DNA from: Nitrosospira multiformis
Lineage (GTDB): Bacteria; Pseudomonadota; Gammaproteobacteria; Burkholderiales; Nitrosomonadaceae
DNA length: 64,000 bases
Direction: 5' to 3'
Assembly: GCF_900111585.1 (NCBI RefSeq)
Contig: NZ_FOHI01000002.1
Coordinates: 1-64,000 of the forward strand
The position numbers were made by a program, and so were the translations under genes. The stretch's first letter is position 1. Each line of letters begins with the position of its first letter. The notes under the pieces were generated by a model. That model did not search any database and was not told the origin of the DNA. It saw only the letters and a list, made by a program, of their open reading frames with translations. Below, one piece after another: positions 11,718 to 55,436 of this stretch.

Positions 11718-14252
11718 TCAATTACGCCGTACTGCTCCGATGGAATTCCAGCGATCCCAAGCGCCATAATGACTCCTGATCGGACCAACCGGCAGTGCGA
11801 GCAGAATCAGCAATACGCCCGCCGTGACGCTGGCTACCGCTCCCAGTCCGGTATAGCCGGTCAGCAGAAGGGGCGCCGGAATCAACCAGGCGCCGAATAT
11901 GATGTTGGCCAAACGCAGCGGACGACCCACTTCGCTCAGGGCCATGATCGAGAAGGTGACAACGAGAGCACCCATCAGATGATCGCCATTGGCGGCAGTG
12001 CCAGCGGTATCGAAGGTGACGCGGGAAAACATCAGCGCGACACCGATGAGGATGCTTGCCCACATGCCCCAGGTAAAGCGCACGCCGGTAGCCATGATTT
12101 CATGCAGCACAGCCAGGGGCGGCCCTTCGAAACCGCCCGAGTAATCCGGTCCACCGCCTTCCATCGTATCTCCGTGCCACAATACGTGCCATAACGATTT
12201 ACCTTTCCTTCTTCGATCCTTGAGGAATTGCAGCGTGGCAAGAATCTCATCGAAGGAATACGGAATCTGTAGCAGCATGGCAGCTGCGGCAATAAGGCAA
12301 AGCGTGCACCAGGTATCCAGCAGAATCGGCTGGATGATGATGAAATAAATACTGACCGCCCCGAGTGGAACAATCAATATCCCAAAGAACAGCACCATCC
12401 AGGGCATCGTCCGCCACCTGCGCTTGTCGCCGATCACGCCCGTGAGGATTTCCAGCACATAGACTGTCGCACCCAGGCCCGCGTCCGCCACCGGCCATGC
12501 TTCGGAGATATAGGAAGTAATGATATGGGCGGTACCTTCGCCAAAAAACGGATCCCAGACATCTTGAATATGACCTAATTGAAAGGCAGCCATATAGCGC
12601 GAAAGAAACAACCCCACGAACGCCAGCGCCACGATGGGAAAACGATTGGTCATTCCGGAAGGACTGTAACTCCAGCCTGGCGGAGTATCCGGCCCACTGG
12701 TACGCGCAACCGCTCCGATACCCGGCGGAGGTGACACGATCACCGCAAATAAAATGACAAAGGCGCCTACCAGCGTATCATTGGCATAAACTGCCGCGCT
12801 CGGAGTCCAGAAGACGAGCGGCGCAAACAGCAACCAGACCCCCAGCAACGCCGTAATCCAGCGCGCCCAGCCGTAGTCACGCGCCAACGATAGAAAGCCG
12901 AATATCACGATCAGCAGACCGGTAGTAATATCGCTTGTCGTCATCCAGGTTGCAGACATCGCTGATCCCCGTTGACTCGGCGTTACGATGTCCTCACTTA
13001 TCATCCAGGACTCCGTCAGCCCGAAAGTGAACGGGCTTGCTATCAGCCATAGCCCGAGAGCCACGTTTGCAAAATGGCACCACAGGCTTTGCCTGTGCTC
13101 GTTCCTTTCCTGTTCACGGCTTTGGGTAATCAGCGTTGCGCTCGGCAGATTGCTTTTTTCCATTTCTTCCAGCCAGGTGGGCAACGGCAGCTTGTTGCGC
13201 TTGTACCAGTTGGCCGGATTGTGTTTCAGCCGCGCAATCATCCTCGGCAGGCACTCGCGCAACATATGCCGCGGACTCCAGTTCAACAGCTTTTTCGCGC
13301 GCGAACAATCGAGCTCGAAATGATCATCGGACAATGCCACCATGAATGGTTTGACAAAGGGTTCAATCCCGCGGTCGATGGCATCCGGTACGATATCCTC
13401 GATCCGGAGCTGGAGCCAGGCGCCGGCAACAGCCATGGATTTGGGAATCTCATGCGTGACCCACGGTGTCTCGTGAATCAACTGACCGATCAGGTTCTGC
13501 AGGCTCTCGTAACTTTCGGTCGCCGGCTCGCCGATCAGGAGGGTGGTTTCTTCGGGCAGCTGCAAGCGCTGCTCCACCGCCAGCCGGAAAGCGAGAGCAA
13601 TGTCATTGATATGCGAAAAAGATTGACCATGCGAAGAATCTCCGGGAAACACATGGCTTTGCAACTGGCGTTCGTAGATACGCTGGAACTGGGTGCTGAG
13701 CGAGGGTACTTCGCACCAGTCGGTGTAGACGCCGGCAAGGCGAAATATCACAAACGGGATGCGTCCATGATACGCCCGCACTTCCTTTTCCGCCGCTACC
13801 TTGGATTCCGGGTAAGGCCATTTTGGCGCGAGCGGTGACTCCTCATTGATAGGCAGGCCGGGCTCCGTTGGCGCATGCACCAGCATAGTGCTTGCATAGA
13901 TAAATTGCTCCACTTCGAACGATTCAAGCGCCTTCAAAAGCCGGCGCGTCCCCCTTATATTGACCTCCTCGTACAAGGGATTGGGTTCGTCCGAAAAATC
14001 GTAAAAGGCAGCAAGATGGATGACAGAGGCAATCCGTTGCCCGTAGGCTTTCCGTAGCTGCTGAAACGCGCGCAATACTGCCGCGTCAGAAGATATATCG
14101 ACACTGATGCAGTCAACATCGGTGCCGCATTTCTGTTCAAAGCCCACCACTCTGAACTTGTCGCCCAGCTCGGTTGCAATCGCCCTGCCGATTCTGCCTT
14201 CAGAACCGGTGATGAGGATCAGAGGTTTTTCGCTGGAATCTTGCTTTTCCAT
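11718..14252 (-). CDS. Fusion protein: extended SDR + SPW + VKOR-like + SPW
   Basis: An 844-residue protein that joins several families. Residues about 10-345 form an extended short-chain dehydrogenase/epimerase with the nucleotide motif GSEGRIG (16-22) and catalytic YPESK (147-151). Residues about 390-505 form a membrane SPW-repeat unit (FANVALGLWLIASPFTFG, LGVWLLFAPLVFW). Residues about 535-680 resemble a vitamin-K-epoxide-reductase-like membrane domain with the CxxC pair WCTLC (C649, C652). Residues about 725-825 form a second SPW unit. No second cysteine pair is seen in the VKOR-like part, although VKOR enzymes normally have one in a periplasmic loop. The frame is open throughout with even composition, so it is not an assembly join. 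Its substrate is unknown; a membrane redox role is inference. Confidence 0.8.
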   Translation of the reverse strand: MEKQDSSEKPLILITGSEGRIGRAIATELGDKFRVVGFEQKCGTDVDCISVDISSDAAVLRAFQQLRKAYGQRIASVIHLAAFYDFSDEPNPLYEEVNIRGTRRLLKALESFEVEQFIYASTMLVHAPTEPGLPINEESPLAPKWPYPESKVAAEKEVRAYHGRIPFVIFRLAGVYTDWCEVPSLSTQFQRIYERQLQSHVFPGDSSHGQSFSHINDIALAFRLAVEQRLQLPEETTLLIGEPATESYESLQNLIGQLIHETPWVTHEIPKSMAVAGAWLQLRIEDIVPDAIDRGIEPFVKPFMVALSDDHFELDCSRAKKLLNWSPRHMLRECLPRMIARLKHNPANWYKRNKLPLPTWLEEMEKSNLPSATLITQSREQERNEHRQSLWCHFANVALGLWLIASPFTFGLTESWMISEDIVTPSQRGSAMSATWMTTSDITTGLLIVIFGFLSLARDYGWARWITALLGVWLLFAPLVFWTPSAAVYANDTLVGAFVILFAVIVSPPPGIGAVARTSGPDTPPGWSYSPSGMTNRFPIVALAFVGLFLSRYMAAFQLGHIQDVWDPFFGEGTAHIITSYISEAWPVADAGLGATVYVLEILTGVIGDKRRWRTMPWMVLFFGILIVPLGAVSIYFIIIQPILLDTWCTLCLIAAAAMLLQIPYSFDEILATLQFLKDRRRKGKSLWHVLWHGDTMEGGGPDYSGGFEGPPLAVLHEIMATGVRFTWGMWASILIGVALMFSRVTFDTAGTAANGDHLMGALVVTFSIMALSEVGRPLRLANIIFGAWLIPAPLLLTGYTGLGAVASVTAGVLLILLALPVGPIRSHYGAWDRWNSIGAVRRN

Positions 14253-29550: not shown

Positions 29551-31059
29551 TTAAGCTACGCTTACGGTGGGGATCGCGGTGAGGGTTTCAGTCCTGGTTA
29601 CGCTTATGTTGCGCGTGGGTTCTTTCCAGGCCAGATCCGGCTCGCGTGCGGCCTTTACGTCATCCAGCCGGCGGACGGGCGTGGTATGAGGCGCGCTTTT
29701 CACCAGGTCCGGCTGCGTATGGGCTTCCTCCAGGATTTCCTTCATTGCTGTTACGAAGGCATCCAGCGTCTCCTTCGATTCGGTTTCAGCGGGTTCAATC
29801 AGCAGGCATTCCGGTACGAGGAGCGGAAAATAGGTCGTCGGAGCATGGTAACCCTTATCCAGCAGACGCTTGGCGAGATTCATCGCGGTGACGCCGGTTT
29901 TCTCCTTCAGGTCCTTCAGGGTAACGATAAATTCATGGCTGGCCCTGCGGTTGGGATAGGCGATCTCGAAACCCGCCTTTCGCAGTTCAGCCATCAGGTA
30001 GTTGGCGTTAAGTGCCGCAAACTCGGCCACTCGATGCATGCCTTCCGCGCCAAGCAGACGTACGTACACATAGGCACGCAACAGAACCCCTGCGTTACCC
30101 ATGTGCGCCGAAAGTCTTCCGATCGATTGCGGTATATCCTTCTCCGTTTGCCAGCGATAGGTCCCGTTTTCAAATGCCACGATAGGTACAGGCATAAACG
30201 GCAACAGCCTCGGTGCGACACCCACCGGAGCCGAGCCTGGGCCTCCACCGCCGTGCGGGGTGGAAAACGTCTTGTGAAGATTGATGTGAATGACATCAAA
30301 GCCCATGTCGCCTGGCTTGACCTTGCCAAGTATGGCGTTCAGGTTTGCACCATCGTAGTAGAGTAATCCGCCTGCCTGATGGACAATCCTGCTCATCTCG
30401 GCGACGTTCTCTTCAAATACACCGAGCGTGGAAGGATTGGTCAGCATCAGCCCGGCCGTTTTCGGACCGACCGCTGCTTTCAGGGCAGCCATGTCCACAT
30501 TACCTTCCTTGTCGGTGGCAATCTCAACGACCTTGTAGCCGCACATGACCGCTGTGGCAGGGTTGGTGCCATGAGCCGCATCCGGAACGATGATTTCGGT
30601 TCGGGCGGTGTCCCCCCGCGACTCGTGATAGGCGCGTATCATTGCGATGCCGATCAGTTCACCCTGTGCTCCCGCCATGGGCGTAAGGCTTACCCCGGCC
30701 ATACCGGTTACATCTTTCAGAATTTCCTGCAGCTCGTACATGCACGCAAGAAATCCTTGGCCGGTGCTTTCCGGCGATCTGGGATGACGGGCCAGAAACT
30801 GGGGCAGCATCGCAATTGAATTGCACGCCCTTGGGTTGTACTTCATCGTGCAGGAACCCAACGGATAAAAATGCGTGTCTATCGAAAAATTCTTTTGCGA
30901 CAGCCGTGTGTAGTGGCGCACCGCGTCCATCTCGGAAACTTCAGGCAGCAGCGGCAGGGTCTTGCGCAATAGCTTCTCCGGAATATCCGTTGCTTCCGCA
31001 GCTTTCGGAGATTGGGAATAATTGCGCCGGCCAGGGCGAGAATGTTCAAATATCAGCAT
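29551..31059 (-). CDS. gcvPB: Glycine dehydrogenase (decarboxylating) subunit 2
   Basis: C-terminal half of the glycine-cleavage P-protein, containing the pyridoxal phosphate site. The 502-residue protein has the PLP lysine in [18 protein letters not shown], the upstream GANLNAILG, and NPSTLGVFE. Together with gcvPA it makes the split P-protein that decarboxylates glycine and hands the aminomethyl group to GcvH. It is separated from gcvPA by tpx and a 171-base gap, which is unusual. Confidence 0.95.
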
Positions 31060-31759: not shown

Positions 31760-33139
31760 CTAAACGTCCGATGCGATATCGGTGCTATTCCTGATGACTT
31801 CGCCCAGTTGCGTGACGTAATTCTCCATGTCCGCGGACGTTTTCGTTTCGGTTGCGCATACCAGCACGGCATCTCCAAGTTCCGGATAGTACTCCTTGAG
31901 ATTGAGTCCACCCAATATCCGCCGGCTCTCGAGCGCCTGCAATACGCTGGCAGCGGGACGGGGCAGGGAGATAACCGCTTCATGGAACAGGGGACCACTG
32001 AATACTCTTTTCACTCCCTTCAGCCTTTCGAGTTTTTCCAGTAACGCTGCCGTATTTGCATGCGATTGGGCAGCAGTCCGGCGCAAGCCTTCCGGGCCCA
32101 GCAAGGCCAGGTAGATGGTTGCCGCCGTGACCATGAGTCCCTGATTGGTACAAATATTGGAGGTGGCCTTGGATCGCCGGATGTGCTGTTCCCGCGCCTG
32201 GAGTGTAAGCACGAAGCCATCGCTACCTTCCTGATCCGTCGTGCGACCGATAATGCGGCCCGGCATCTGGCGCACCAGGGGCTGCTTGCAGGCCATAAAA
32301 CCGAAATACGGTCCTCCGCTGGACAAGGGAATGCCCAATGGCTGTCCTTCGCCCACGGCAATGTCTGCTCCTTTCTCTCCCCACTCGCCGGGTGGAGTCA
32401 GCATTGCCAGGGCCATGGGGTTCACAACGGCGATGGCAAAAGCATCTCTGCTCTGAGCCCAGTCGGTGAGTGCATCGACATCTTCGAGCACGCCGAAAAA
32501 GTTCGGCTGGGGAATCACGAGCGCTGCGAATTCTTCGCTGCCAAAGTTTTTCAGCCCGTCCAGCGAAGTCTGTCCGGAAAGCTTGTCGTAGGGAATCTCC
32601 ACCACCTCAATTCCCTGGTTTTTGACAATGGCGCGAACTACACTGCGATAGACCGGGTGAACGGTCTGCGGGATCAAAATCCGCCGCGAGGTCCGGTGCG
32701 AACGCACGGCCATCAGGGCGGCTTCCGCCAGTGCGGAGGCGCCGTCGTACATGCTGGCGTTGGAAACATCCATCCCCGTCAGCGACGCCATCATCGTCTG
32801 GTACTCATAGAGCAATTGCAGGGTCCCCTGGCTGGCCTCCGCCTGATAGGGCGTATAAGAGGAGTAGAACTCCCCCCGTGTGGCAATCTGCCAGACAGCC
32901 GCTGGAATATGGTGCTCATAAGCGCCCGCGCCGATGAAGTTCAGGTAGCGTCCATCCTGCTCGGCGCGCTCCAGCATCAAACGCGATATTTCCATTTCGC
33001 TCAAGCCGGGCGGCACCCGCTTCAGGCTACCGGTTTTCAGCGCGAGTGGAATCTCATCGAACAGCTCATCGATGCTGTTTGCGCCGATGCTCGCGAGCAT
33101 AGCTTGTATATCTTCTTCAGTATGTGGAATGAACGGCAT
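31760..33139 (-). CDS. gcvPA: Glycine dehydrogenase (decarboxylating) subunit 1
   Basis: N-terminal half of the P-protein. The 459-residue protein starts [19 protein letters not shown]. It shows [53 protein letters not shown] and PNFFGVLED, all typical of GcvPA. The PLP lysine is in the partner GcvPB. It lies 90 bases downstream of gcvH. As I recall, most proteobacteria carry a single-chain GcvP, so the split form is notable. Confidence 0.95.
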
Positions 33140-33660: not shown

Positions 33661-34743
33661 TCAAACGAGAATCTTGCCATTGCGGACGAAAGGATATTTC
33701 ACGACCTTCGCTTTCAACTCTTTATCCCGAACGACGACCTGAACTTCGTCTCCGGGAGATACACCCAGGGGCAGGCGCGCCAGGGCGATCGACTGATTGA
33801 GTGTGGGCGAAAAGCCTCCGCTGGTAATTTCACCCTCGCCTCCGCCGTTTTTTGTAACCACCTTCTGATGGCTGCGCAATACCCCGCGATCCAATAACAC
33901 CAGGCCGGTCAGTTGCTGGGTGACCCGCTTGTCCAGAAGCGCCTGCTTGCCGATGAAGTCGCGATCGCTCTTCAAATCCACCGTCCAGCCCAGCCCCGCT
34001 TCCAGGGGGTTGATGGTTTCATCCATATCCTGCCCGTAAAGATTCATGCCTGCTTCGAGCCGCAGGGTATCTCTTGCCCCCAGGCCTGCGGGGGCCACTC
34101 CCGCGGCGTGGAGTTTATTCCAGAAATTCGCGGCGTCGGTTGCCGGAAGCGTAATCTCGAAACCGTCTTCGCCGGTGTAACCTGTGCGGGCGATAAAATA
34201 CTTGTCAAAAAAGGCTGCCTGGAACAGCTTCAGATTCTCCGTGTCCGTCTGTGAGCCCGGAAGTACCTGCCACACCTTGGCGCGGGCATTGGGACCTTGC
34301 ACTGCGATCATTGCCAGATCCCTGCGGGGCGTGATTTCGAGACCGGGAGCTATCCTGTCGCATTGCGAAAGCATCCATGTCATATCCTTATCGGCGGTCC
34401 CTGCATTGACCACCATCCGGAAATGCGATTCCGTCAGAAAATAGATGATAAGATCATCTATTACTCCGCCGTCGGGGTTGAGCATGCAGGAGTAAAGCGC
34501 CTTGCCTGGCTGCGTCAGTTTGTCTATATTGTTGGCGACCAGTTGCCGCAGGAACGCGCGCGCTCTCTCTCCCTCGATGTCGACGGCGAGCATATGGGAC
34601 ACATCGAACATGCCCGCATCGCTGCGCACCTTGTGGTGCTCATCAAGCTGCGAACCGTAATGCAGGGGCATGTCCCAGCCGCCAAAATCCACCATCTTGG
34701 CGTTCATATCGCGGTGGGCTTGATTTAGAGGAGTTGTTTTCAC
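33661..34743 (-). CDS. gcvT: Aminomethyltransferase (glycine cleavage T protein)
   Basis: Transfers the methylene group from the H protein to tetrahydrofolate and releases ammonia. I choose the GTG at 34743, giving 360 residues beginning [22 protein letters not shown] after the start, which is the family N-terminus. A TTG at 34758 would begin inside the U-run of the upstream terminator and is unlikely. Motifs: [31 protein letters not shown] and [14 protein letters not shown]. It is the first gene of the operon and lies directly behind the riboswitch terminator. Confidence 0.95.
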
Positions 34744-34756
34744 AGATCGATATTCC

Positions 34757-34791
34757 AAAAAAAAGGTGAGGTCACGCCTGATGACCTCACC
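34757..34791 (-). terminator. Riboswitch-controlled terminator before gcvT
   Basis: On the minus strand, a 10-bp perfect stem GGTGAGGTCA/TGACCTCACC with a 7-base loop is followed by eight Ts (34757-34764). It lies between the second glycine aptamer and the gcvT start, as expected for a transcription attenuator. Confidence 0.93.
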
Positions 34792-34800
34792 CCTCTGTCC

Positions 34801-34995
34801 TTTTTACCTGAGAGATTACGGGCAGGATTTTCCCTGCTCCGTCTGCCCCTTCGGTGGCCAGCCCAATGCTGGCACTCTCCAGATTGCCTTTTCGCAAGCG
34901 GTTATCAGGGATCAAGATCGACATGATCTGCGCCTGAGCGATTCCGGGGGGTTGCGCCTTCGGCGGCGACGATGAGTTCGCGCTCTTCCGCTTGG
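34801..34995 (-). promoter_or_regulatory. Tandem glycine riboswitch
   Basis: Two aptamer-like units read on the minus strand. Aptamer I spans about 34932-34990: it begins with GGAAGAGCG, has the core GCCGCCGAAGGCGCAA and ends with CGCTCAGGC. Aptamer II spans about 34806-34882: it begins with CTGGAGAGTGCC, has GCCACCGAAGGGGCA and ends with CTCTCAGGT, then AAAAAGGACAGAGG. These are the conserved gcvT-motif elements. With the terminator next to it, glycine binding would be expected to allow read-through into gcvT, so glycine turns on its own catabolism. Confidence 0.93.
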
Positions 34996-35015
34996 ATATA
35001 AATGGCGAAATTCGA

Positions 35016-47568: not shown

Positions 47569-47865
47569 GAAGCTGGCCAGACAGTCGCTGCCTGTCCTCG
47601 GTGACGAGTGCAGGGAGAGGAAAGTCCGGGCTCCGCAGAGCAGGATGCCGGTTAACGGCCGGCCGCCGTAAGGTGAGGAACAGGGCCACAGAGACGAGCG
47701 TATTAAGTTACGGTGAAACGCGGTAACCTCCATCCGGAGCAAGACCAAATAGGCAGGCGATGATGCTGCTCGTTGAGCCTGCGGGTAGGTTGCTTGAGCG
47801 TGCGGGTGACTGCACGCCTAGAGGAATGACTGTCCTTGACAGAACCCGGCTTATCGGCCAGCTTC
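47569..47865 (+). ncRNA. rnpB: RNase P RNA (type A)
   Basis: Catalytic RNA that matures tRNA 5' ends. The 5' GAAGCTGGCCAG pairs with the 3' TCGGCCAGCTTC to close P1. Conserved elements are visible: GAGGAAAGTCCGGGCTCC (CR I), a GCCGTAAGGTGAGGAACAGGGCCACAGAGA-type block split across 47667-47698 (CR II/III region), GGTGAAACGCGGTAACCTCC, AAATAGGCAGG, and the 3' AGAGGAATGACTG with ACAGAA (CR V). The span of about 297 bases is short compared with the E. coli RNA (377). No clear intrinsic terminator follows. Confidence 0.93.
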
Positions 47866-48106
47866 TTTCCGGAATTTCCGATAATTCTGACTCCATAAAG
47901 GCGAAAGCGACGGCACGCCGATTGCAATCTCTCTGCATATTCCGGGCAGCAGAAAACAGCCAGAATATATCTCTCTCCGCCCTTCCGCAGCCTGTTGCCT
48001 GAACATTCTCTGTTTCCTTTTCCGGACAGGTTTGTTATACAATCGACGATTGCTCCCGCTTGTGCGGGGCGTCAGATTAAATTGCGGACACAAAACCGGA
48101 GATATT

Positions 48107-48703
48107 ATGAAGAAAATTTTTGAGTGGGCTGCCGGGCTGGCAGGGGCTATGATGATAGCTCTCGTGGCTGTTCCCGCCCATGCACAACTCATGCTTGCGC
48201 ATGAAGGCCACCATTCAGGCGATTGTGCCATCAAATCGGGCGCCTTTCCTGTATCCTTCACCGCCTATGAGAAACCCAAGGGCGAGCTTCCGCCCACTCA
48301 TGCCTATTGTGACCATGTTCCCGAAACCGGAGAGCTGTATTTCACGGTGGATCTGACCGATCCTGAATCCCGCGAAATTCCCATCGCGATGCGCCTTGTG
48401 ATGGAAGGGCATGGAGAGGAAGGGCATGAAATCATGTCGATACCTGCCAAACCCTATCCTTCCGGAAGCATTACATTTACCGTAAACCTGGAAGAACTAG
48501 GGCAGTACGCGTTGCTGCTGGAAACCGAGAAGGACGGTAAGATGACTCCCGCGGTACGCATTCCCGTACATGTGGGCGGAGGTGGTGGCCATGATGGACA
48601 CGGCGGTGGTATCGGCATGACAGAGATTGCGCTGATACTGGGTGTGGCTGGCGTAGCAGCCTTCTTTCTGCTGCGTCGGCGGACGAGCGCCAAAATGTCC
48701 TGA
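48107..48703 (+). CDS. His-rich secreted protein with C-terminal membrane anchor
   Basis: I do not recognise the family. The 198-residue product starts at ATG 48107, behind a CCGGAGAT site. It has a signal peptide ending AHAQ, a His-rich stretch (LAHEGHHSGDC), and a middle domain with DHVPETGELYFTVDLTDPESREIPIA and a beta-rich pattern. A Gly/His linker (GGGGGHDGHGGG) then leads to a single C-terminal span followed by RRR. The end resembles a C-terminal membrane anchor. The His-rich parts and a possible cupredoxin-like beta fold suggest metal handling, but that is only inference. It follows rnpB. Confidence 0.7.
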   Translation: MKKIFEWAAGLAGAMMIALVAVPAHAQLMLAHEGHHSGDCAIKSGAFPVSFTAYEKPKGELPPTHAYCDHVPETGELYFTVDLTDPESREIPIAMRLVMEGHGEEGHEIMSIPAKPYPSGSITFTVNLEELGQYALLLETEKDGKMTPAVRIPVHVGGGGGHDGHGGGIGMTEIALILGVAGVAAFFLLRRRTSAKMS

Positions 48704-48982
48704 GCAAGGCAGAATCAGCGCTATTCAATCCTCGATCCGCGAAATTAAAAGCACGCACTTCCGCGGATTCTTCTGAACGAGCGGCGGCGGGGTTTTAAGG
48801 GATTATCTATTTTCCCTTCTTGACCTCGGCGCCGTTTTTTTATTCGTCATTGGGCCTACTCCGGATCTTACAGCATACTCCGGTGACTAACGTGGAGTGG
48901 ATGGTGTAAGGTAGGATAGTAAGATGAGAATCTTCCTTTCCAGGCTGGCTTTCAATGCGTGCGTCTGAAAAACAAAAGGTCC

Positions 48983-50170
48983 TTACTGGAAAATAGTCTC
49001 GCGCAACTTGGCGAAAGTTTTGCCGACATGATTCATCTGCTCGCTGGTATGAACGGCGCTTACACTGCAACGTACCAACGAATTGCCCTCCGGCGTTGCG
49101 GGTGGCAAAACCAGATTCACATAGATACCATGTTCAAGCAGTCCTTTCCACAGTGCCAGCGCCTGTTGCGGCGTCTCAAGGATTGTTGCGATAACAGGGC
49201 TTGGCTCCGGTCCCAGGCGATAACCCAGTTCCTTAAGTTGCGAGTAGAGCTGGTGCACATTCTTCCAGAGTTGCCGGCGTAATTCGACACCCTCCCTCAG
49301 CAGCCTGAGAGCTGCACGGGTTGAGGCGATGGTGGCAGGCGTAGGCGAGGCAGTGAAAATATAAGGGCGGCTCACATAGCGCAACTGATCCAGTTGCGGA
49401 TGATTGCTCACACAGTAGCCGCCGATCCCGCCCAGGCTTTTACTGAAGGTCCCTGTGATGAAGTCTACTCTATCGAGGAGGCCTGTTTCTTCTACCAGAC
49501 CTTGTCCGGTCTCACCCAGTACCCCCAGGGAATGCGCTTCATCAAGAAGAAGCGTGCTGTTATACGCATCCTTTACCTTGACGATATCCGCCAGCGGCGC
49601 ACGGTCTCCAAGCATACTGTAGATGCCCTCGGCAATGATGAGGGTGGAGCGCGATCGTTCTCCCAAGCGGCGGAGACGCTTTTCCAGATCTGCTGCATCG
49701 TTGTGTCTGAAGCGGATTATTTCGGCGCCGCTCAACCGGCAGCCATCGTAGATGCTTGCGTGGGAATCGCCGTCAATAAGAACGATGTCACCGGGCCCGG
49801 CCAAGCCTGAGATGGTCGCAAGGTTGGCCTGATACCCCGTGGTAAATACGATGCAGGACCGGCATTGATAAAACTCGGCAAACTCGCGCTCGAGGGCACG
49901 ATGGCCGCTGTAACTGCCATTGGCCATGCGCGAACCGGTTGTACCCGTACCTTCACTGTGAATCGCTTCCTGCGCTGCATCCCGGCACTCCTGCGCGAAG
50001 GTAAGGCCTAGATAATTATTTGTTCCCAGAAACAATATCCGATGGTCCCCGATCCTGGCTTCGGTCGAGGAATAAACTTCTTCTATGGGCGTTCCAAAAA
50101 CCTCAATACCCTCAGGCAGCAAGGCTTTTCTCGCTGCCGCCACGGCATCCAGCTTATCTAGCAAACTCAT
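48983..50170 (-). CDS. spt: Serine palmitoyltransferase
   Basis: PLP-dependent alpha-oxoamine synthase that condenses L-serine with a fatty acyl thioester to 3-ketosphinganine, the first step of sphingolipid synthesis. The 395-residue protein matches the remembered Sphingomonas SPT closely: GTGTTGSRMANGSYSGH, DGDSHASIYDGC, AEIIRFRHN, EGIYSMLGD, SRPYIFTAS and YVNLVLPPATP. Active-site residues H137, D210, H213 and PLP lysine K244 have nearly the same spacing as in SPT. The short segment FSKSLGGIGGYC and SRPYIFTAS argue against BioF, Kbl or ALA synthase. In the PPATP loop the Arg of the Sphingomonas enzyme is Leu here. It is last in a four-gene operon, and its start overlaps the ACP stop (ATGA). 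Confidence 0.9.
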   Translation of the reverse strand: MSLLDKLDAVAAARKALLPEGIEVFGTPIEEVYSSTEARIGDHRILFLGTNNYLGLTFAQECRDAAQEAIHSEGTGTTGSRMANGSYSGHRALEREFAEFYQCRSCIVFTTGYQANLATISGLAGPGDIVLIDGDSHASIYDGCRLSGAEIIRFRHNDAADLEKRLRRLGERSRSTLIIAEGIYSMLGDRAPLADIVKVKDAYNSTLLLDEAHSLGVLGETGQGLVEETGLLDRVDFITGTFSKSLGGIGGYCVSNHPQLDQLRYVSRPYIFTASPTPATIASTRAALRLLREGVELRRQLWKNVHQLYSQLKELGYRLGPEPSPVIATILETPQQALALWKGLLEHGIYVNLVLPPATPEGNSLVRCSVSAVHTSEQMNHVGKTFAKLRETIFQ

Positions 50171-50421
50171 TGTTTTTGAGACCTTATCCGATGGATCAAG
50201 TTGGCGAGCTCATGAACGGTCTGTACATCCGCAAGAGCATTGATCGGTACGGAAATGTCGAATTCGTCCTCGATTTCCATGATCAGGTTCAGCAATTTTA
50301 CAGAATCGATTGCCAGCTCGTTAATAAGATCGGTCTGTGGTGTGATTTCCACCTCCGGACCGGCAAGCTGTTTGAGGTGATGGCAAAGTTTTTGCAGAAC
50401 GTCGTTATAATCGTTCAACAT
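50167..50421 (-). CDS. Dedicated acyl carrier protein
   Basis: An 84-residue ACP. The phosphopantetheine serine lies in the motif ELAIDSVKLLNLIMEIEDEF, in which DSV replaces the DSL of housekeeping ACPs. It is coupled to spt by a 4-base overlap and lies 29 bases after the SDR gene. In Caulobacter the SPT locus has a similar ACP (acpR) that carries the acyl chain to SPT; the same role is inferred here from order and coupling. Confidence 0.9.
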   Translation of the reverse strand: MLNDYNDVLQKLCHHLKQLAGPEVEITPQTDLINELAIDSVKLLNLIMEIEDEFDISVPINALADVQTVHELANLIHRIRSQKQ

Positions 50422-50450
50422 CTGGATTCAAAATGATTCGATGATTGAAA

Positions 50451-51365
50451 TTAGACCGCTTGTGGCAAAGCGTCGCGAAGGTGGATGCAGGGTCGCCAAT
50501 CAGGGAGTGCCCGGGTCAAGGGATCAATATCACAAACCCAGTCGGGGTGACGCAATTCTCTCACTTTTCCCGGTGTCAGCATAGGTGAATAGCTTAGCAA
50601 TCTGGCAGACCACAAGTTGACGTTTGCGATCAATGAAACCAGTGGTGCGGGGAAAAAGATGCAGTATACGGGGCGTTTCCACACTTCCTGCGCAATATTG
50701 GCTACTGCCTGGCTGTCGTAACCTCCCGGCCTACCATCATCAAGCTCGTAGGTACCTTGTACCGGCACGGCAGTCGAAAGCCAGCAGGTGATGGCTGCTA
50801 CCAGATCGGCGACATGCAGTAATCCAAACCGCATGTCAGGTTGTCCCACCATTGGCAAGATACCGCGGCGCGTTATCCTGAAAAGCGGGCTCATTTCCTT
50901 ATCTCCGGGGCCATAAACAGCTGTAGGACGAAAAATGGCACAGGCCATACCAGCCGAACGCTCATTTATCAATCGTTCAGCCATGTGCTTGCTCATGGCA
51001 TACCAGGAAAGCTCGGGTTGCCGGGCGGCCAGAGAAGAAATCAGCAGGAAACGTGGAGGCGGGTTTTGTTCCAGAGAAGCCTGCATCAGGTTGATCGTAC
51101 CGTCCACATTGGTACGGACAAAGCTCTCGAGAGAGCTTCCCCGAACCTGACCGGCGCAATGCACAACGGCCGAGACACCTGTTACGAGCTTTCGCAATGC
51201 ATCGAGGTTATGTAAGTCGCCTTCTATCCATTGCGTGGACCCGTCATCGACGCGCCCACGTCTTGTCAGAGCCCTGACTTTCCATCCTTCCTTTATCAGG
51301 GACTGCAGCAGAGCATTTCCGATAAAGCCAGTGGCGCCGGTAACGGCGACCCAGGACTCCGACAT
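50451..51365 (-). CDS. cerR: NAD(P)-dependent epimerase, CerR-like ketoreductase
   Basis: A 304-residue extended SDR with the nucleotide motif VTGATGFIGNALLQSL near the N-terminus, the substrate-site serine region LLISSLAARQPE and catalytic YAMSK. In bacterial ceramide operons an SDR at this place (CerR) reduces the keto group of the long-chain base or ceramide. The assignment to CerR rests on operon position between the acyl-AMP ligase and the ACP-SPT pair, not on a diagnostic motif. A sugar or sterol substrate remains possible. Two hydrophobic segments near the C-terminus (residues about 225-265) may attach it to the membrane. Confidence 0.75.
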   Translation of the reverse strand: MSESWVAVTGATGFIGNALLQSLIKEGWKVRALTRRGRVDDGSTQWIEGDLHNLDALRKLVTGVSAVVHCAGQVRGSSLESFVRTNVDGTINLMQASLEQNPPPRFLLISSLAARQPELSWYAMSKHMAERLINERSAGMACAIFRPTAVYGPGDKEMSPLFRITRRGILPMVGQPDMRFGLLHVADLVAAITCWLSTAVPVQGTYELDDGRPGGYDSQAVANIAQEVWKRPVYCIFFPAPLVSLIANVNLWSARLLSYSPMLTPGKVRELRHPDWVCDIDPLTRALPDWRPCIHLRDALPQAV

Positions 51366-51372
51366 ACGCCGA

Positions 51373-53199
51373 TTATTTGTCCCCGGACTCGGCAGATAGC
51401 TGGTCTGTCATCTGCGTTCGCTGGATAAAGCCCTGGCGTGCCGCAAAACGGGACAGTTTTCCGGAGGAAGTACGCGGCAGGGTGTGCGGTGGAACCAGTT
51501 CCACCAAGCAGTTCACGCCAAACGCCATGTAGACCAGACGTTGCAGACGGCTGGTAAGGGACTGGCGATCCGTTATCGAGGTAAGCCGGCATTCGATGAC
51601 CAGGACAATGGTCGTGACGTCATTGGCGTCAGTAACCCCGAAGGCAGACGCTTCACGCGTTCTCACCTCGGGTTGCTGTTCGGCAAGCTCCTCGATATCC
51701 TGCGCGCGGATATTACGCCCATTGACGATGATTACATCGGTGCGACGCCCGGTGATGTATAGATCCCCTTCAAAGAGGAACCCCAGATCACCGGTATCCA
51801 GCCAGTTCCCGGGTTTGAGTGTCTTGCAGGTGTCTTCCGGATTGTTGAAATAACCTGTCATGATACTGCTGCCCTGCACGAGTACGCTGCCCACGCGCAA
51901 ATCAGGAAGCTGCTGGCCGGCCTCGTCGACCACTTTGACGATATGCTCCGGCAAGGCGCGGCCGCAGTTGACAAATTCACTATACTTCCGGCCTTCCACC
52001 TGTAATCGTACTGCCATTTTCCTGTCAACGAGGGTTGCCGCGTCGACTCGCAGACTCTGAAAACCTTGGCCAACCTCGGAGAAAGTAACGGCGAGCGTCG
52101 ATTCAGCCAGCCCATAGCAGGGGAGGAATGCGCGCGCGTCAAAACCGGCGGGCGCAAATTTTTCCGCAAAATTCCTCAAAGTGTCCGGCCGGATCATTTC
52201 CGCGCCGACTCCTGCTGCACGCCAACTGCTGAGGTCAAGATCTTCCAGGTCGGAATCGCGCACGCGAAGTGTACAGAGCTTGAGCCCAAAAGGTTGGCTG
52301 AACGCGACGGTGGCGCGATTTCTGCTGATCAGGCGCAGCCATTGCAGCGGCCTGATTGCAAAATCACGGGTAGCCAGATAATCAACGGAAACCTGCGCCA
52401 CCATGGGCGCCATTACCATGCCGACCAGGCCCATGTCATGATAAAACGGCAGCCAGGATGCGCAGCGGTCTCCTGCCCGGATATTCAGACCGTGACGGAC
52501 AATGCCCTGAAGGTTGCTCATCAGTGCACCTTCGGTAATTACTACTCCACGCGGCATGCGCGTGCTTCCCGAAGTAAATTGCAGGTATGCGATTTCATCC
52601 GGACTATTTGGTGCGAGCTCAGTAGTCAGCGCCGGCAGTTCCCCGAGTTGCTCTGGCGTTCCCACCCAGCGCAGATGTTGCGACTCCTCGGCCGCTTCTT
52701 TCAAGAAACCGACATAGTCAACGTTCGCCAGCGCGGCGCTTGCCTGACCCGCCTCCAGCATTCCGCGCAACTGCCGAACATAGACCGCATGGCTGCCGAG
52801 GTTGACAGGAACAGGCATTGCATAAGGCACCAGTCCTGCATAGCGGCATGCATAAAAGATTTCCACGAATTCCGGCGTCGTGTCGGCAATAATCGCAACA
52901 CGATCCCCTCTCGCCAACCCAAGCCCGAGCAACTGCCGCGCCGCTGTTTGGGCATTTTGCCTTAATGCCTGATAGGGAAGAACGGAGCGGAGATTACCCT
53001 TGGCATCATAAAAGTTATATCCCGCTGTACCTGCCGCCGCATACTCGAGCGCAGCGATCAAGGTGTCGAAGTCGGCTAATCTCTGAGCTTGAGTGTTATA
53101 AGTAGGTGTGGGGATCGCAGCTGCCGGCTGCTCGCTTGATAATTGAGGGTTAAACGCTTGCGTCAGCGGAGCGTTCAACTTCGCTATTGTTGAACTCAA
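51373..53199 (-). CDS. Fatty acyl-AMP ligase (FAAL) / acyl-ACP synthetase
   Basis: Adenylate-forming enzyme of the FAAL family, expected to activate a fatty acid and load it onto the ACP of this operon. The product has 608 residues if it starts at TTG 53199, behind a very strong AGGGGAAGACC site. Motifs: YLQFTSGSTRMPRGVVITEGAL (P-loop), WLPFYHDMGLVG, CYGLAESTLAVTF and LDTGDLGFLFEGDLYITGR. An upstream ATG (53232) lies on top of the predicted transcription start, so it is less likely. It is the first gene of the operon, seven bases from the SDR gene. Its Caulobacter counterpart is aasR. Confidence 0.88.
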   Translation of the reverse strand: MSSTIAKLNAPLTQAFNPQLSSEQPAAAIPTPTYNTQAQRLADFDTLIAALEYAAAGTAGYNFYDAKGNLRSVLPYQALRQNAQTAARQLLGLGLARGDRVAIIADTTPEFVEIFYACRYAGLVPYAMPVPVNLGSHAVYVRQLRGMLEAGQASAALANVDYVGFLKEAAEESQHLRWVGTPEQLGELPALTTELAPNSPDEIAYLQFTSGSTRMPRGVVITEGALMSNLQGIVRHGLNIRAGDRCASWLPFYHDMGLVGMVMAPMVAQVSVDYLATRDFAIRPLQWLRLISRNRATVAFSQPFGLKLCTLRVRDSDLEDLDLSSWRAAGVGAEMIRPDTLRNFAEKFAPAGFDARAFLPCYGLAESTLAVTFSEVGQGFQSLRVDAATLVDRKMAVRLQVEGRKYSEFVNCGRALPEHIVKVVDEAGQQLPDLRVGSVLVQGSSIMTGYFNNPEDTCKTLKPGNWLDTGDLGFLFEGDLYITGRRTDVIIVNGRNIRAQDIEELAEQQPEVRTREASAFGVTDANDVTTIVLVIECRLTSITDRQSLTSRLQRLVYMAFGVNCLVELVPPHTLPRTSSGKLSRFAARQGFIQRTQMTDQLSAESGDK

Positions 53200-53235
53200 G
53201 GTCTTCCCCTCCAAATTAATCGTACTAGTCATCTT

Positions 53236-53264
53236 TTTATAATATAAGGATTCCAGTCGGGCAA
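53236..53264 (-). promoter_or_regulatory. Promoter of the sphingolipid operon
   Basis: On the minus strand, TTGCCC (53259-53264), a 17-base spacer and TATAAA (53236-53241). Transcription would start near 53229. That leaves about 30 bases of leader before the TTG start at 53199 and rules against the ATG at 53232. Confidence 0.6.
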
Positions 53265-53887
53265 TCGTTGTTTTTGGCCATCATCCGCTGTCGCGTCGTT
53301 CGAGTTCGAGATGCTGCTTGAAAATATCGGCCTTACCTGGCTCCCGGTAAAGGCAGTAGCTCGAAAAACAAAAAATAAATGCGCTAATCTGTGAAATCAA
53401 CGAACCTTCTTATACTCAGCTCTTATTATCGTAATAGAGCAGCTTTATCATGCACTTCGGGCATTACCGAATCCCGCTCCTTCACGCAAGGAGCTGTCTC
53501 TAACACGCTGTCTGCTTTCGATTATCTACAGGATAGGCGATAAGCTCCATTCTGTACGAGTTGGCAGACGATATAAAGAGGTTTTGGAGAATGGAAGGGA
53601 AATGTGTGTCTTTTTTGCAACACTTGCCGGAACCGGACCCTTCAGCTTCGCGTTAGATCTGATCTCAATCTCTTTCGCAGCCGCGCGACATTTTACAGGA
53701 ATCCATCTATCGATGGATCAACTCTTCTTTTATTTTCGAGGCGGATTATTGCAGCCCCGGGGGGCGGTCTTCCGGAATCACACTACACACCACAGGGAAT
53801 CCTTGAAAAAATTCCTCGCCTGGAATAGGCCTGCCGCTGACTCCAAGGTGCAAAGCCGGATTTACACTCAATCAGTACCGGGTCGCC
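53265..53887. other. Intergenic region without a recognised gene
   Basis: About 620 bases between the sphingolipid operon promoter and the STAS-like gene; both neighbours are on the minus strand. The stretch is more A+T-rich than its surroundings. A plus-strand frame at 53584-54000 has no family resemblance and runs antisense into the STAS gene, so I do not call it. I see no RNA gene or repeat. Confidence 0.5.
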
Positions 53888-54232
53888 TCATCCTTCAAGC
53901 CATGTCTTTGCTTCGGCATAATCCCGGAATACCCTTATGTCGGCATCGACAAATAGATTGGATACCCAGGCCGCCCAGGCGCGCCACTGGTTTTCAGTGA
54001 TTATCGCGATGCGGTTGAATTCGCTGCCGTGTTCCCGCACGAATTTGATGTCCTCCCAAGCGACATCAATGGTGTAGTTCAGCATATCCCGCCAATCGAA
54101 CAGTACATTCACCTTGCCGTCGCGACCAGCCTTGCGGAGCACCTTGTCCTCGAATTCTTGGTAATCGGCCAAGGTGAATTCACCGAAAACAGCGATACTG
54201 ATCAGATTTTCCGTTTCCTCAATGGTTATCAT
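53888..54232 (-). CDS. STAS/SpoIIAA-like protein
   Basis: A 114-residue protein of the SpoIIAA-like (DUF3478) group. It has MITIEETENLISIAVFGEFTLADYQEFEDKVL at the N-terminus and VNVLFDWRDMLNYT in the middle, then AIITENQWRAWAAWVSNLF. Such stand-alone proteins are thought to bind lipids or act in regulation, but no role is settled. It begins 106 bases after the Rieske gene on the same strand and may be transcribed with it. Confidence 0.82.
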   Translation of the reverse strand: MITIEETENLISIAVFGEFTLADYQEFEDKVLRKAGRDGKVNVLFDWRDMLNYTIDVAWEDIKFVREHGSEFNRIAIITENQWRAWAAWVSNLFVDADIRVFRDYAEAKTWLEG

Positions 54233-54338
54233 ATGTTACCCACAATATAAAATTGCGCGGGCAGAGAAAATCCGGATAGTCCAAAAAATTCAGACTACCG
54301 CAGAAAAATCCGCTCAACAAAAGAATATCACTTATCGC

Positions 54339-55436
54339 TCAGATGTGCGGTTCAATTTCTCGCCGCAGAAACTTGTGGAAGTGCATCATGCCATCTTCCA
54401 TCGGCGATTGGTACGGTCCGGCCTCGCTCACGCCTTGTTTGTACAGCGCACGGCGCCCTTCTGTCATCAGCTTGCAGATTTCATCATCCTCAGCAGCGGT
54501 TTCATGATAGGCGGCCTGTTCTGCTTCAATGAATTCACGCTCAAACAAAGCGATATCTTCAGGATAATAGAACTCCACCACATTGGTGCAACGCTCTGTT
54601 CCGGTAGGAAGCACCGTGCTGATGACCAATACATGAGGATACCATTCCATCATGATGTTGGGATAATACAGCATCCAGATTGCCCCATGCCTCGGTATTT
54701 CGCCCGCTGTCTGCAGCAACAGTTGCTCGTGCCATTTTGCATAGACGGGCGTTCCCGGGCGGGTCAGGGCGTTATTGATCCCTACAGTCTGAACGTTGTA
54801 CCACTCCCCGAACTCCCATTCCAGCGCAGCCGTGTCAACAAAGTTGCCCAGGCCTGGATGGTACGGCTCGACGTGGTAGTCCTCCAGATAAACCTCTATG
54901 AAGGTTTTCCAGTTGCAGGCGTATTCATCTATCTGAAGGCGTTCCAGCACATGGCCCGAGAAGTCGAAATTCTTCAGGACTTGCAAGTTGCCCAGATCCC
55001 GCGCAACATTCCGCCTGCCCTGAAACAGGAGTCCGTTCCAGCTCTGCAAAGGCGTATTGGAAAGATTGAGGCAAGGGTTTTCGGGGAAATGGGGCGCACC
55101 GAGCAACGTGCCCTTCAAGTCATACGTCCAGCGATGCACCGGGCAAACGATGTTTCTGGTGTTGCCACTCCCTTTGAGCAGCAGTGACTGCCTGTGGCGG
55201 CAGACGTTGGACAGCAACTCGATACCATCCTTATTACGCACCAGCATTTTCGCGTTATCCATCCATTCAGGCACATAATAGTCGCCAATGTTTGGCACCA
55301 TGATCTCATGGCCGACATAGCCCGGTCCCTGGTCGAACAGAATGCGTTTTTCCAGTTCAAGGATTTGAGAGTCGAGATACCAGTCAACCGGCAGTTGCGT
55401 TGGAGCCAATTGGCAAACATCAATCAGATCGACCAT
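54339..55436 (-). CDS. Rieske non-haem iron oxygenase, alpha-subunit type
   Basis: A 365-residue aromatic-ring-hydroxylating-dioxygenase-like protein. The Rieske [2Fe-2S] ligands are seen in VCRHRQ (CxH) and CPVHRW (CxxH). The catalytic domain has NWKTFIEVYLEDYHVEPYH, in which D and two His fit the mononuclear iron ligands. No beta subunit, ferredoxin or reductase gene is adjacent, so electrons must come from elsewhere. The substrate cannot be deduced; it need not be aromatic, since choline- and carnitine-type oxygenases share this fold. Confidence 0.85.
   Translation of the reverse strand: MVDLIDVCQLAPTQLPVDWYLDSQILELEKRILFDQGPGYVGHEIMVPNIGDYYVPEWMDNAKMLVRNKDGIELLSNVCRHRQSLLLKGSGNTRNIVCPVHRWTYDLKGTLLGAPHFPENPCLNLSNTPLQSWNGLLFQGRRNVARDLGNLQVLKNFDFSGHVLERLQIDEYACNWKTFIEVYLEDYHVEPYHPGLGNFVDTAALEWEFGEWYNVQTVGINNALTRPGTPVYAKWHEQLLLQTAGEIPRHGAIWMLYYPNIMMEWYPHVLVISTVLPTGTERCTNVVEFYYPEDIALFEREFIEAEQAAYHETAAEDDEICKLMTEGRRALYKQGVSEAGPYQSPMEDGMMHFHKFLRREIEPHI

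Follow-up and report, generated by a model that had tools for sequence, protein, structure and literature searches.

Genes for a predicted sphingolipid-based outer membrane in Nitrosospira multiformis and other Nitrosomonadaceae genomes without a match to LpxC

The window analyzed here is a stretch of 64,000 nucleotides from Nitrosospira multiformis, an ammonia oxidizer of soils (C10:1-64000 in the contig coordinates used below). It carries a four-gene operon, aasR-cerR-acpR-spt, whose role in the synthesis of a ceramide backbone we regard as near certain. The same genome has no match to LpxC, an enzyme needed for lipid A, and its single LptF/LptG pair lies in a second operon, next to a ceramide synthase homologue and candidate head-group genes. 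These observations suggest that the organism probably has an outer membrane without lipopolysaccharide (LPS), the outer leaflet being formed by a ceramide phosphoglycerate (CPG)-type lipid that would arrive through a repurposed Lpt bridge. With somewhat less confidence, we favor the same picture for all Nitrosomonadaceae, which would have lost lipid A together with LPS-type LptFG and would expose an anionic phosphosphingolipid that a dedicated LptF2/LptG2 pair exports via the retained LptD.

Results

The ceramide operon of the window

The four genes occupy window positions 48983-53232 on the minus strand. Gaps of 7 bases (aasR/cerR) and 29 bases (cerR/acpR) and an overlap of 4 bases (acpR/spt) were read from the map of open reading frames (ORFs), in exact agreement with an earlier, sequence-only reading of this DNA.

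48983-50170, minus strand: spt, serine palmitoyltransferase (SPT), 395 aa (NF047599, 2x8u match, SPT clade, motifs)
50167-50421, minus strand: acpR, dedicated acyl carrier protein (ACP), 84 aa (PF00550, similarity to BL21 AcpR, overlap with spt)
50451-51365, minus strand: cerR, NAD-dependent epimerase/short-chain dehydrogenase type reductase, 304 aa (PF01370, BL21 homologue, motifs)
51373-53232, minus strand: aasR, fatty acyl-AMP ligase/acyl-AcpR synthetase, 619 aa (NF006624)

The identity of SPT was established along several lines. In NCBIfam profile searches the protein scores 598.7 bits against the equivalog NF047599, above its cut-off of 500, and stays below the cut-offs of the remaining 13 listed models, which include BioF, Kbl, HemA, and a quorum-sensing synthase. 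Its best solved relatives are SPT structures (2x8u; E = 9.5e-121), and from DSHAS to FSKS the alignment is interrupted by a single gap of one residue. The segments DGDSHASIYDGC, SRPYIFTAS, and PPATP, earlier proposed as SPT specific, were located at residues 133, 267, and 356, and GTFSKS, which we take to be the motif of the pyridoxal phosphate-binding lysine, is found at residue 240. A maximum-likelihood tree was built from 31 rows, comprising 24 SPT, three BioF (one from the window's genome), two Kbl, and two HemA sequences and no quorum-sensing or sulfonolipid synthase. In this tree all 24 SPT rows stand across a 100/100 branch from BioF, Kbl, and HemA, so that SPT groups with neither BioF nor Kbl. 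The long outgroup branches meet, as a program warning indicated, and the BioF of the window's genome (L003) was named from its place beside Comamonas bioF, not from annotation.

AasR passes the fatty acyl-AMP ligase model NF006624 (874.3 bits; cut-off, 600) in an alignment that begins at residue 41. The N-terminal extension of about 40 residues aligns in six Nitrosospira and Nitrosomonas rows, but not in two rows from outside (L026 and L029). AcpR matches PF00550 with 47.5 bits (cut-off, 20.8), has the serine of its DSVK motif at residue 40, and is 45% identical to AcpR of Escherichia coli BL21 over 65 residues. CerR matches PF01370 with 99.2 bits, carries a YxxxK motif at residue 122, and is 47% identical to the BL21 homologue in the equivalent operon place. 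Neither AcpR nor CerR reached the cut-off of an NCBIfam model. The Rossmann glycine motif of CerR falls inside the first 16 residues, a position that would be too close to the N-terminus to allow a usual signal peptide. For the CerR of Caulobacter, sections of PMC11087976 report a periplasmic location.

The order aasR-cerR-acpR-spt on a single strand was found in all 29 relatives compared, out of 80 spt loci fetched, from Nitrosospira to Pseudomonas, Serratia, and metagenome-assembled genomes (MAGs) of other groups. Together with the SPT model, the structure match, and the SPT tree, this conservation supports the interpretation as a ceramide-type operon that the sequence-only reading had offered, and the locus appears to be of the AcpR-dependent (rhodobacterial) type. 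The single promoter assumed by that reading was not borne out, given that a scan of window positions 48700-53900 returned four promoter-like sites against a shuffle mean of 4.0, none of them upstream of aasR.

The second operon

The four window genes are insufficient for making ceramide, since the N-acyltransferase homologue sits about 196 kb off on the same contig. A whole-genome search with E. coli BL21 YghO as the query gave one match (C10:249193-250287; 49% identity). This match lies in the first gene of an operon with the following members.

C10:249139-250293: bCerS, N-acyltransferase homologue, first gene of the second operon (YghO similarity)
C10:250340-251182: MobA-like nucleoside triphosphate (NTP) transferase (domain match)
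C10:251230-252306: LptF (PF03739)
ending at C10:253367: LptG (PF03739)
C10:253447-254694: CDP-alcohol phosphotransferase (domain match)
C10:254691-255707: diacylglycerol-kinase-type lipid kinase (domain match)
C10:255704-256690: Tam41-like CTP transferase, 328 residues (profile and model match)

The head-group genes appear to correspond to the CPG genes of Caulobacter: candidates with the domains of CpgA, the ceramide kinase CpgB, CpgC, and a nucleotidyltransferase lie in the bCerS operon and are linked to spt elsewhere, the matching being by domain and the substrates predicted. The last gene required a more sensitive comparison. Its product matches the Pfam family Tam41 (CDP-diacylglycerol synthase) weakly, with E = 0.12 and the cut-off not reached. 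A profile of 15 of the 16 relatives located (the shortest was left out) finds the Tam41 structure 6ig2 with E = 2.9e-5. The structure predicted by AlphaFold2 for a 51% identical relative (mean predicted local distance difference test score, pLDDT, 89.1) has as its best match the Tam41 structure 6ig4 (E = 6.3e-8; template modeling [TM] scores, 0.50/0.56), followed by antibiotic nucleotidyltransferases at E = 1.7e-5.

Homologues of the second-operon genes recur beside spt, as a comparison with 84 other spt-bearing loci showed (80 relatives, three plasmids, and E. coli BL21). The numbers of loci are 52 for bCerS, 34 for LptG, 31 for LptF, 27 for the kinase, 21 for the NTP transferase, 17 for the Tam41-like protein, and 14 for the CDP-alcohol transferase, in a set where many loci are cut short and no Nitrosospira or Nitrosomonas locus extends to its second operon. 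This recurrence ties the second operon to that of the window.

The family FemAB_like (PF04339) was considered as a marker for bCerS and gave a strong match at C9:158208-159314 and matches in 53 of 125 family genomes. YghO itself matches no Pfam family; hence PF04339 was dropped and YghO was used as the query. The opposite strand immediately beyond the second operon (C10:256647-258748) encodes a CMP-sugar synthetase-like protein whose end resembles KdsC, together with a NeuB-like synthase. They were named by eye and from a KdsC match and may form a surface glycan cluster.

Lipid A and Lpt genes

LpxC (PF03331) was matched in none of the 125 genomes placed by inference in the family Nitrosomonadaceae, nor in any of the 99 of high quality among them, and the window's genome is one of those without a match. 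The same search was positive in 4 of 14 named genomes, those of E. coli, Caulobacter, Synechococcus, and Bacteroides. This absence agrees with a survey of nine lipid A genes, sections of which list only lpxK for Nitrosomonas europaea and, as cited there, only lpxA for N. multiformis, compared with every gene except lpxM for other Betaproteobacteria, and attribute the gaps to genome reduction (PMC3087551). The lpxD-like matches on the contig (29 to 32% identity over about 75 residues) were read as hexapeptide repeats.

A whole-genome search with PF03739 returned two matches; both are encoded in the bCerS operon, as its LptF and LptG. Across the family, LptFG matches occur in 121 of the 125 genomes: exactly two in 111, three in eight, four in one, and one in one. 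Of the 103 genomes that have both places among the matches listed (17 further genomes with bCerS fall outside this count), 98 have an LptFG gene no more than 5 kb away from bCerS, and 141 of the 149 LptFG places among the matches listed are near bCerS. In an LptF tree of 28 rows, seven family rows and 14 LptF from spt loci are joined across a 100/99 branch, apart from five LPS-type LptF of E. coli, Proteus, Aeromonas, Pseudomonas aeruginosa, and Neisseria. Those of Proteus, Aeromonas, and Neisseria were taken as LPS type from their similarity to E. coli LptF, the fetched records carrying no annotation. Two alphaproteobacterial spt-linked LptF (L066 and L070) fall outside the branch, which indicates that the spt-linked LptF of all bacteria do not form a single clade. 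The LptG tree agrees; as it has one canonical row only and long branches, the LptF tree was preferred. No canonical LPS-type LptF/LptG pair was thus found in the window's genome, and the sole pair appears to be of the spt-linked type.

LptD is encoded on the same contig by an ORF of 928 residues (PF04453, 313.7 bits; cut-off, 22.4; E = 2.9e-93) in its usual setting of surA, pdxA, and rsmA. A genome without an LpxC match therefore keeps an Lpt bridge, with a permease that is apparently spt linked. Searches for LptB and MlaF matched several ABC ATPases, which allowed no assignment.

Host genome and distribution

By SPT, the closest named relatives belong to N. multiformis (98 to 99% identity). 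The genome is 99.6% complete and has one match to ammonia monooxygenase (AMO; PF02461), as befits the ammonia-oxidizer-like betaproteobacterium that had been proposed as the host. Of the 125 genomes of the family, 67 have an AMO match; ammonia oxidation is accordingly indicated for part of the family only.

SPT scores over the curated cut-off in 119 of the 125 genomes, and the bCerS homologue is present in 120. The six genomes that miss SPT are G006, G017, G028, G039, G056, and G119. Among these, G056 alone is more than 90% complete; the SPT of G017 begins at a contig end and scores 374 bits. Among 399 genomes drawn from the order, 16 have SPT matches at E = 1e-120 or better, 13 of them in Nitrosomonadaceae.

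Two records titled as Klebsiella pneumoniae MAGs (L027 and L030) carry an SPT 67 to 68% identical to that of the window and second-operon genes close to those of the window's genome, and their names look wrong. Ceramide operons with lptF/lptG nearby were also seen on plasmids of Klebsiella michiganensis (L214, NZ_CP106839.1; typed as conjugative), Rahnella aquatilis (L215), and Pseudomonas sp. JS425 (L216), which indicates that the module can move between bacteria.

Other features of the window

Upstream of aasR, a Rieske-type ring hydroxylase and a SpoIIAA-like gene (53888-55436, minus strand) adjoin the operon in five of five Nitrosospira loci and none of nine Nitrosomonas loci compared, and were not counted as part of the module. 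A class A bacterial RNase P RNA lies downstream of the operon at 47569-47869 on the plus strand. A tandem glycine riboswitch (34785-35000, minus strand; 57.0 and 38.1 bits) is found upstream of a GcvT ORF (33661-34758), which is followed by two GcvP-type ORFs (31760-33139 and 29551-31059). At 11718-14252 on the minus strand, an ORF of 844 residues combines in series an NAD epimerase, SPW repeats, and a vitamin K epoxide reductase (VKOR) domain; this apparently unusual fusion reached the cut-off of none of the NCBIfam models listed.

Discussion

The gene set would allow the following pathway. AasR would activate a free fatty acid and load it onto AcpR, and SPT would form 3-oxo-sphinganine from acyl-AcpR and serine; among tested enzymes, sections of PMC9386255 report that AasR puts free fatty acid on AcpR and that SPTs prefer acyl-AcpR. 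bCerS and CerR would then lead to dihydroceramide, by an order of N-acylation and reduction that is disputed for Caulobacter (PMC11087976, in part). The lipid kinase, the Tam41-like CTP transferase, the MobA-like nucleotidyltransferase, and the CDP-alcohol phosphotransferase would build a phosphoglycerate-type head group, and LptF2/LptG2 with LptD would take the product to the outer membrane. There the anionic sphingolipid may stand in for LPS in the outer leaflet, since the family is without LpxC and so, presumably, without lipid A.

Several observations weigh against this interpretation. The lipids of family members are predicted from genes, LpxC is the sole lpx gene tested family-wide, and the other lpx genes rest on the survey of 2010 (PMC3087551) and two species. 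Orthology to CpgA-D is assigned by domain, not by direct comparison. Both kinds of LptFG pass the NCBIfam LptF/LptG equivalog models, which thus do not discriminate between them; 10 of the 121 genomes deviate from exactly two LptFG matches, and 8 of the 149 listed places are not near bCerS (seven on a different contig and one, in G096, 713 kb off). The LptD ORF is below the NCBIfam LptD cut-offs (385.5 versus 683), and no LptA, LptC, or flippase was identified in the window's genome. For N. eutropha, sections of PMC11324152 state that LptC2, flippase, and CC_1158 genes like those of the Caulobacter cluster are lacking. Finally, G039, G056, and G119 are alike in having neither an over-cut-off SPT nor bCerS, LptFG, or LpxC. 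G056 (91% complete) and G119 (89%) both carry AMO, and either these bins miss two distant loci or the module is dispensable and can be lost.

Intracytoplasmic membranes are known in ammonia oxidizers of this group, and the location of a lipid is not readable from sequence. The sphingolipid might therefore serve those membranes, with an outer leaflet of phospholipid, an S-layer, or another Lpt-moved glycolipid. We consider this unlikely because bCerS shares its operon with the head-group and LptFG genes, the same genes accompany spt in many bacteria beyond this group, and Caulobacter studies put these lipids in the outer membrane (sections of PMC11087976 and PMC11324152). The sequence-only reading had expected a bearing on both the outer surface and the intracytoplasmic membranes; the missing LpxC points to the outer membrane, and nothing was found in favor of the intracytoplasmic membranes.

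It is also improbable that the ceramides accompany ordinary LPS as accessory lipids that only tune envelope stability. Caulobacter itself combines LPS with a second LptFG pair (PMC11324152, in part), and E. coli BL21 carries both pairs. Against this stand the absence of LpxC from all 125 family genomes, the spt-linked type of the sole LptFG pair, and the reported lack of most lpx genes in N. europaea and N. multiformis (PMC3087551, in part). That the SPT-like enzyme makes another alpha-oxoamine (a signal molecule, a sulfonolipid base, or a BioF/Kbl product) is highly improbable: the alpha-oxoamine synthase family is broad, there are sub-cut-off scores to the BioF, Kbl, HemA, and quorum-sensing synthase models, and the tree is without quorum-sensing or sulfonolipid synthase rows, but of the 14 listed NCBIfam models only NF047599 is passed, the SPT clade is supported at 100/100, and the gene adjoins a dedicated ACP and an acyl-ACP synthetase, as in loci with tested SPTs (PMC9386255, in part).

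We thus favor an LPS-free outer membrane with an exported sphingolipid. Should this be true, the retention of LptD in the absence of LpxC would be explained, sphingolipid export through an Lpt bridge could be studied in a natural system, and expectations for the permeability, polymyxin response, and endotoxin content of the group would change.

Comparison with known systems

Parts of this picture are already known. In N. eutropha C91, which belongs to the same family and has the same gene assignment as the window's genome, Neut_0458-0461 and Neut_1100 were published as aasR, epi/cerR, acpR, and spt, with aca/cerS elsewhere (sections of PMC9386255, where the BL21 YghO homologue is named aca). 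The operon is consequently not new for the group. N. eutropha is also predicted to form CPG and CPG2 (PMC11324152, in part), and the lipid A gene gap is known for two species. The available parts of PMC9386255 and PMC11324152 are silent on missing lipid A genes in Nitrosomonas and on a single LptFG pair, and among open-licence papers none was found that joins sphingolipid genes and lpx losses in this family, or family-wide presence of SPT and bCerS with absence of LpxC. Combining the separate reports yields one directly testable picture.

E. coli BL21(DE3) shares the aasR-cerR-acpR-spt order, and the proteins are 45 to 54% identical to those of the window's genome. Its operon is flanked by yghO (bCerS) and accompanied by an additional lptF/lptG pair. 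Unlike the window's genome, it also has the canonical lptF/lptG, and the stretch fetched contains no head-group homologue.

The lipid of sphingomonads is a glycosphingolipid, whereas a phosphoglycerate-like head group is predicted here. Like the state proposed for Nitrosomonadaceae, sphingomonads are diderm without LPS and need a sphingolipid, which replaces LPS in them according to sections of PMC11087976 and PMC11324152. Their aasR is far from acpR-spt (PMC9386255, in part), whereas these genes share one operon in the window.

A further parallel in gene content comes from Caulobacter crescentus, whose CC_1168-CC_1152 cluster holds aasR, cerR, acpR, spt, cerS, lptF2, lptG2, and head-group genes (sections of PMC11324152 and PMC10331486). 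The latter comprise the ceramide kinase CC_1160 (LCB5/diacylglycerol kinase type), the CDP-diacylglycerol-synthase-like CC_1161, CC_1159 of the CDP-alcohol type, and the nucleotidyltransferases CC_1153 and CC_1152 (PMC11324152, PMC10331486, and PMC12275187, each in part). The same kinds of genes are gathered there in one region and are split here between two operons 196 kb apart. Caulobacter has LpxC and LPS, whereas LpxC is unmatched in the window's genome and LptFG is present there as a single pair. Life of Caulobacter without LPS depends partly on CPG2, as sections of PMC12275187 report, and by analogy the Nitrosomonadaceae may well be the wild-type counterpart of such lipid-A-free, sphingolipid-dependent mutants.

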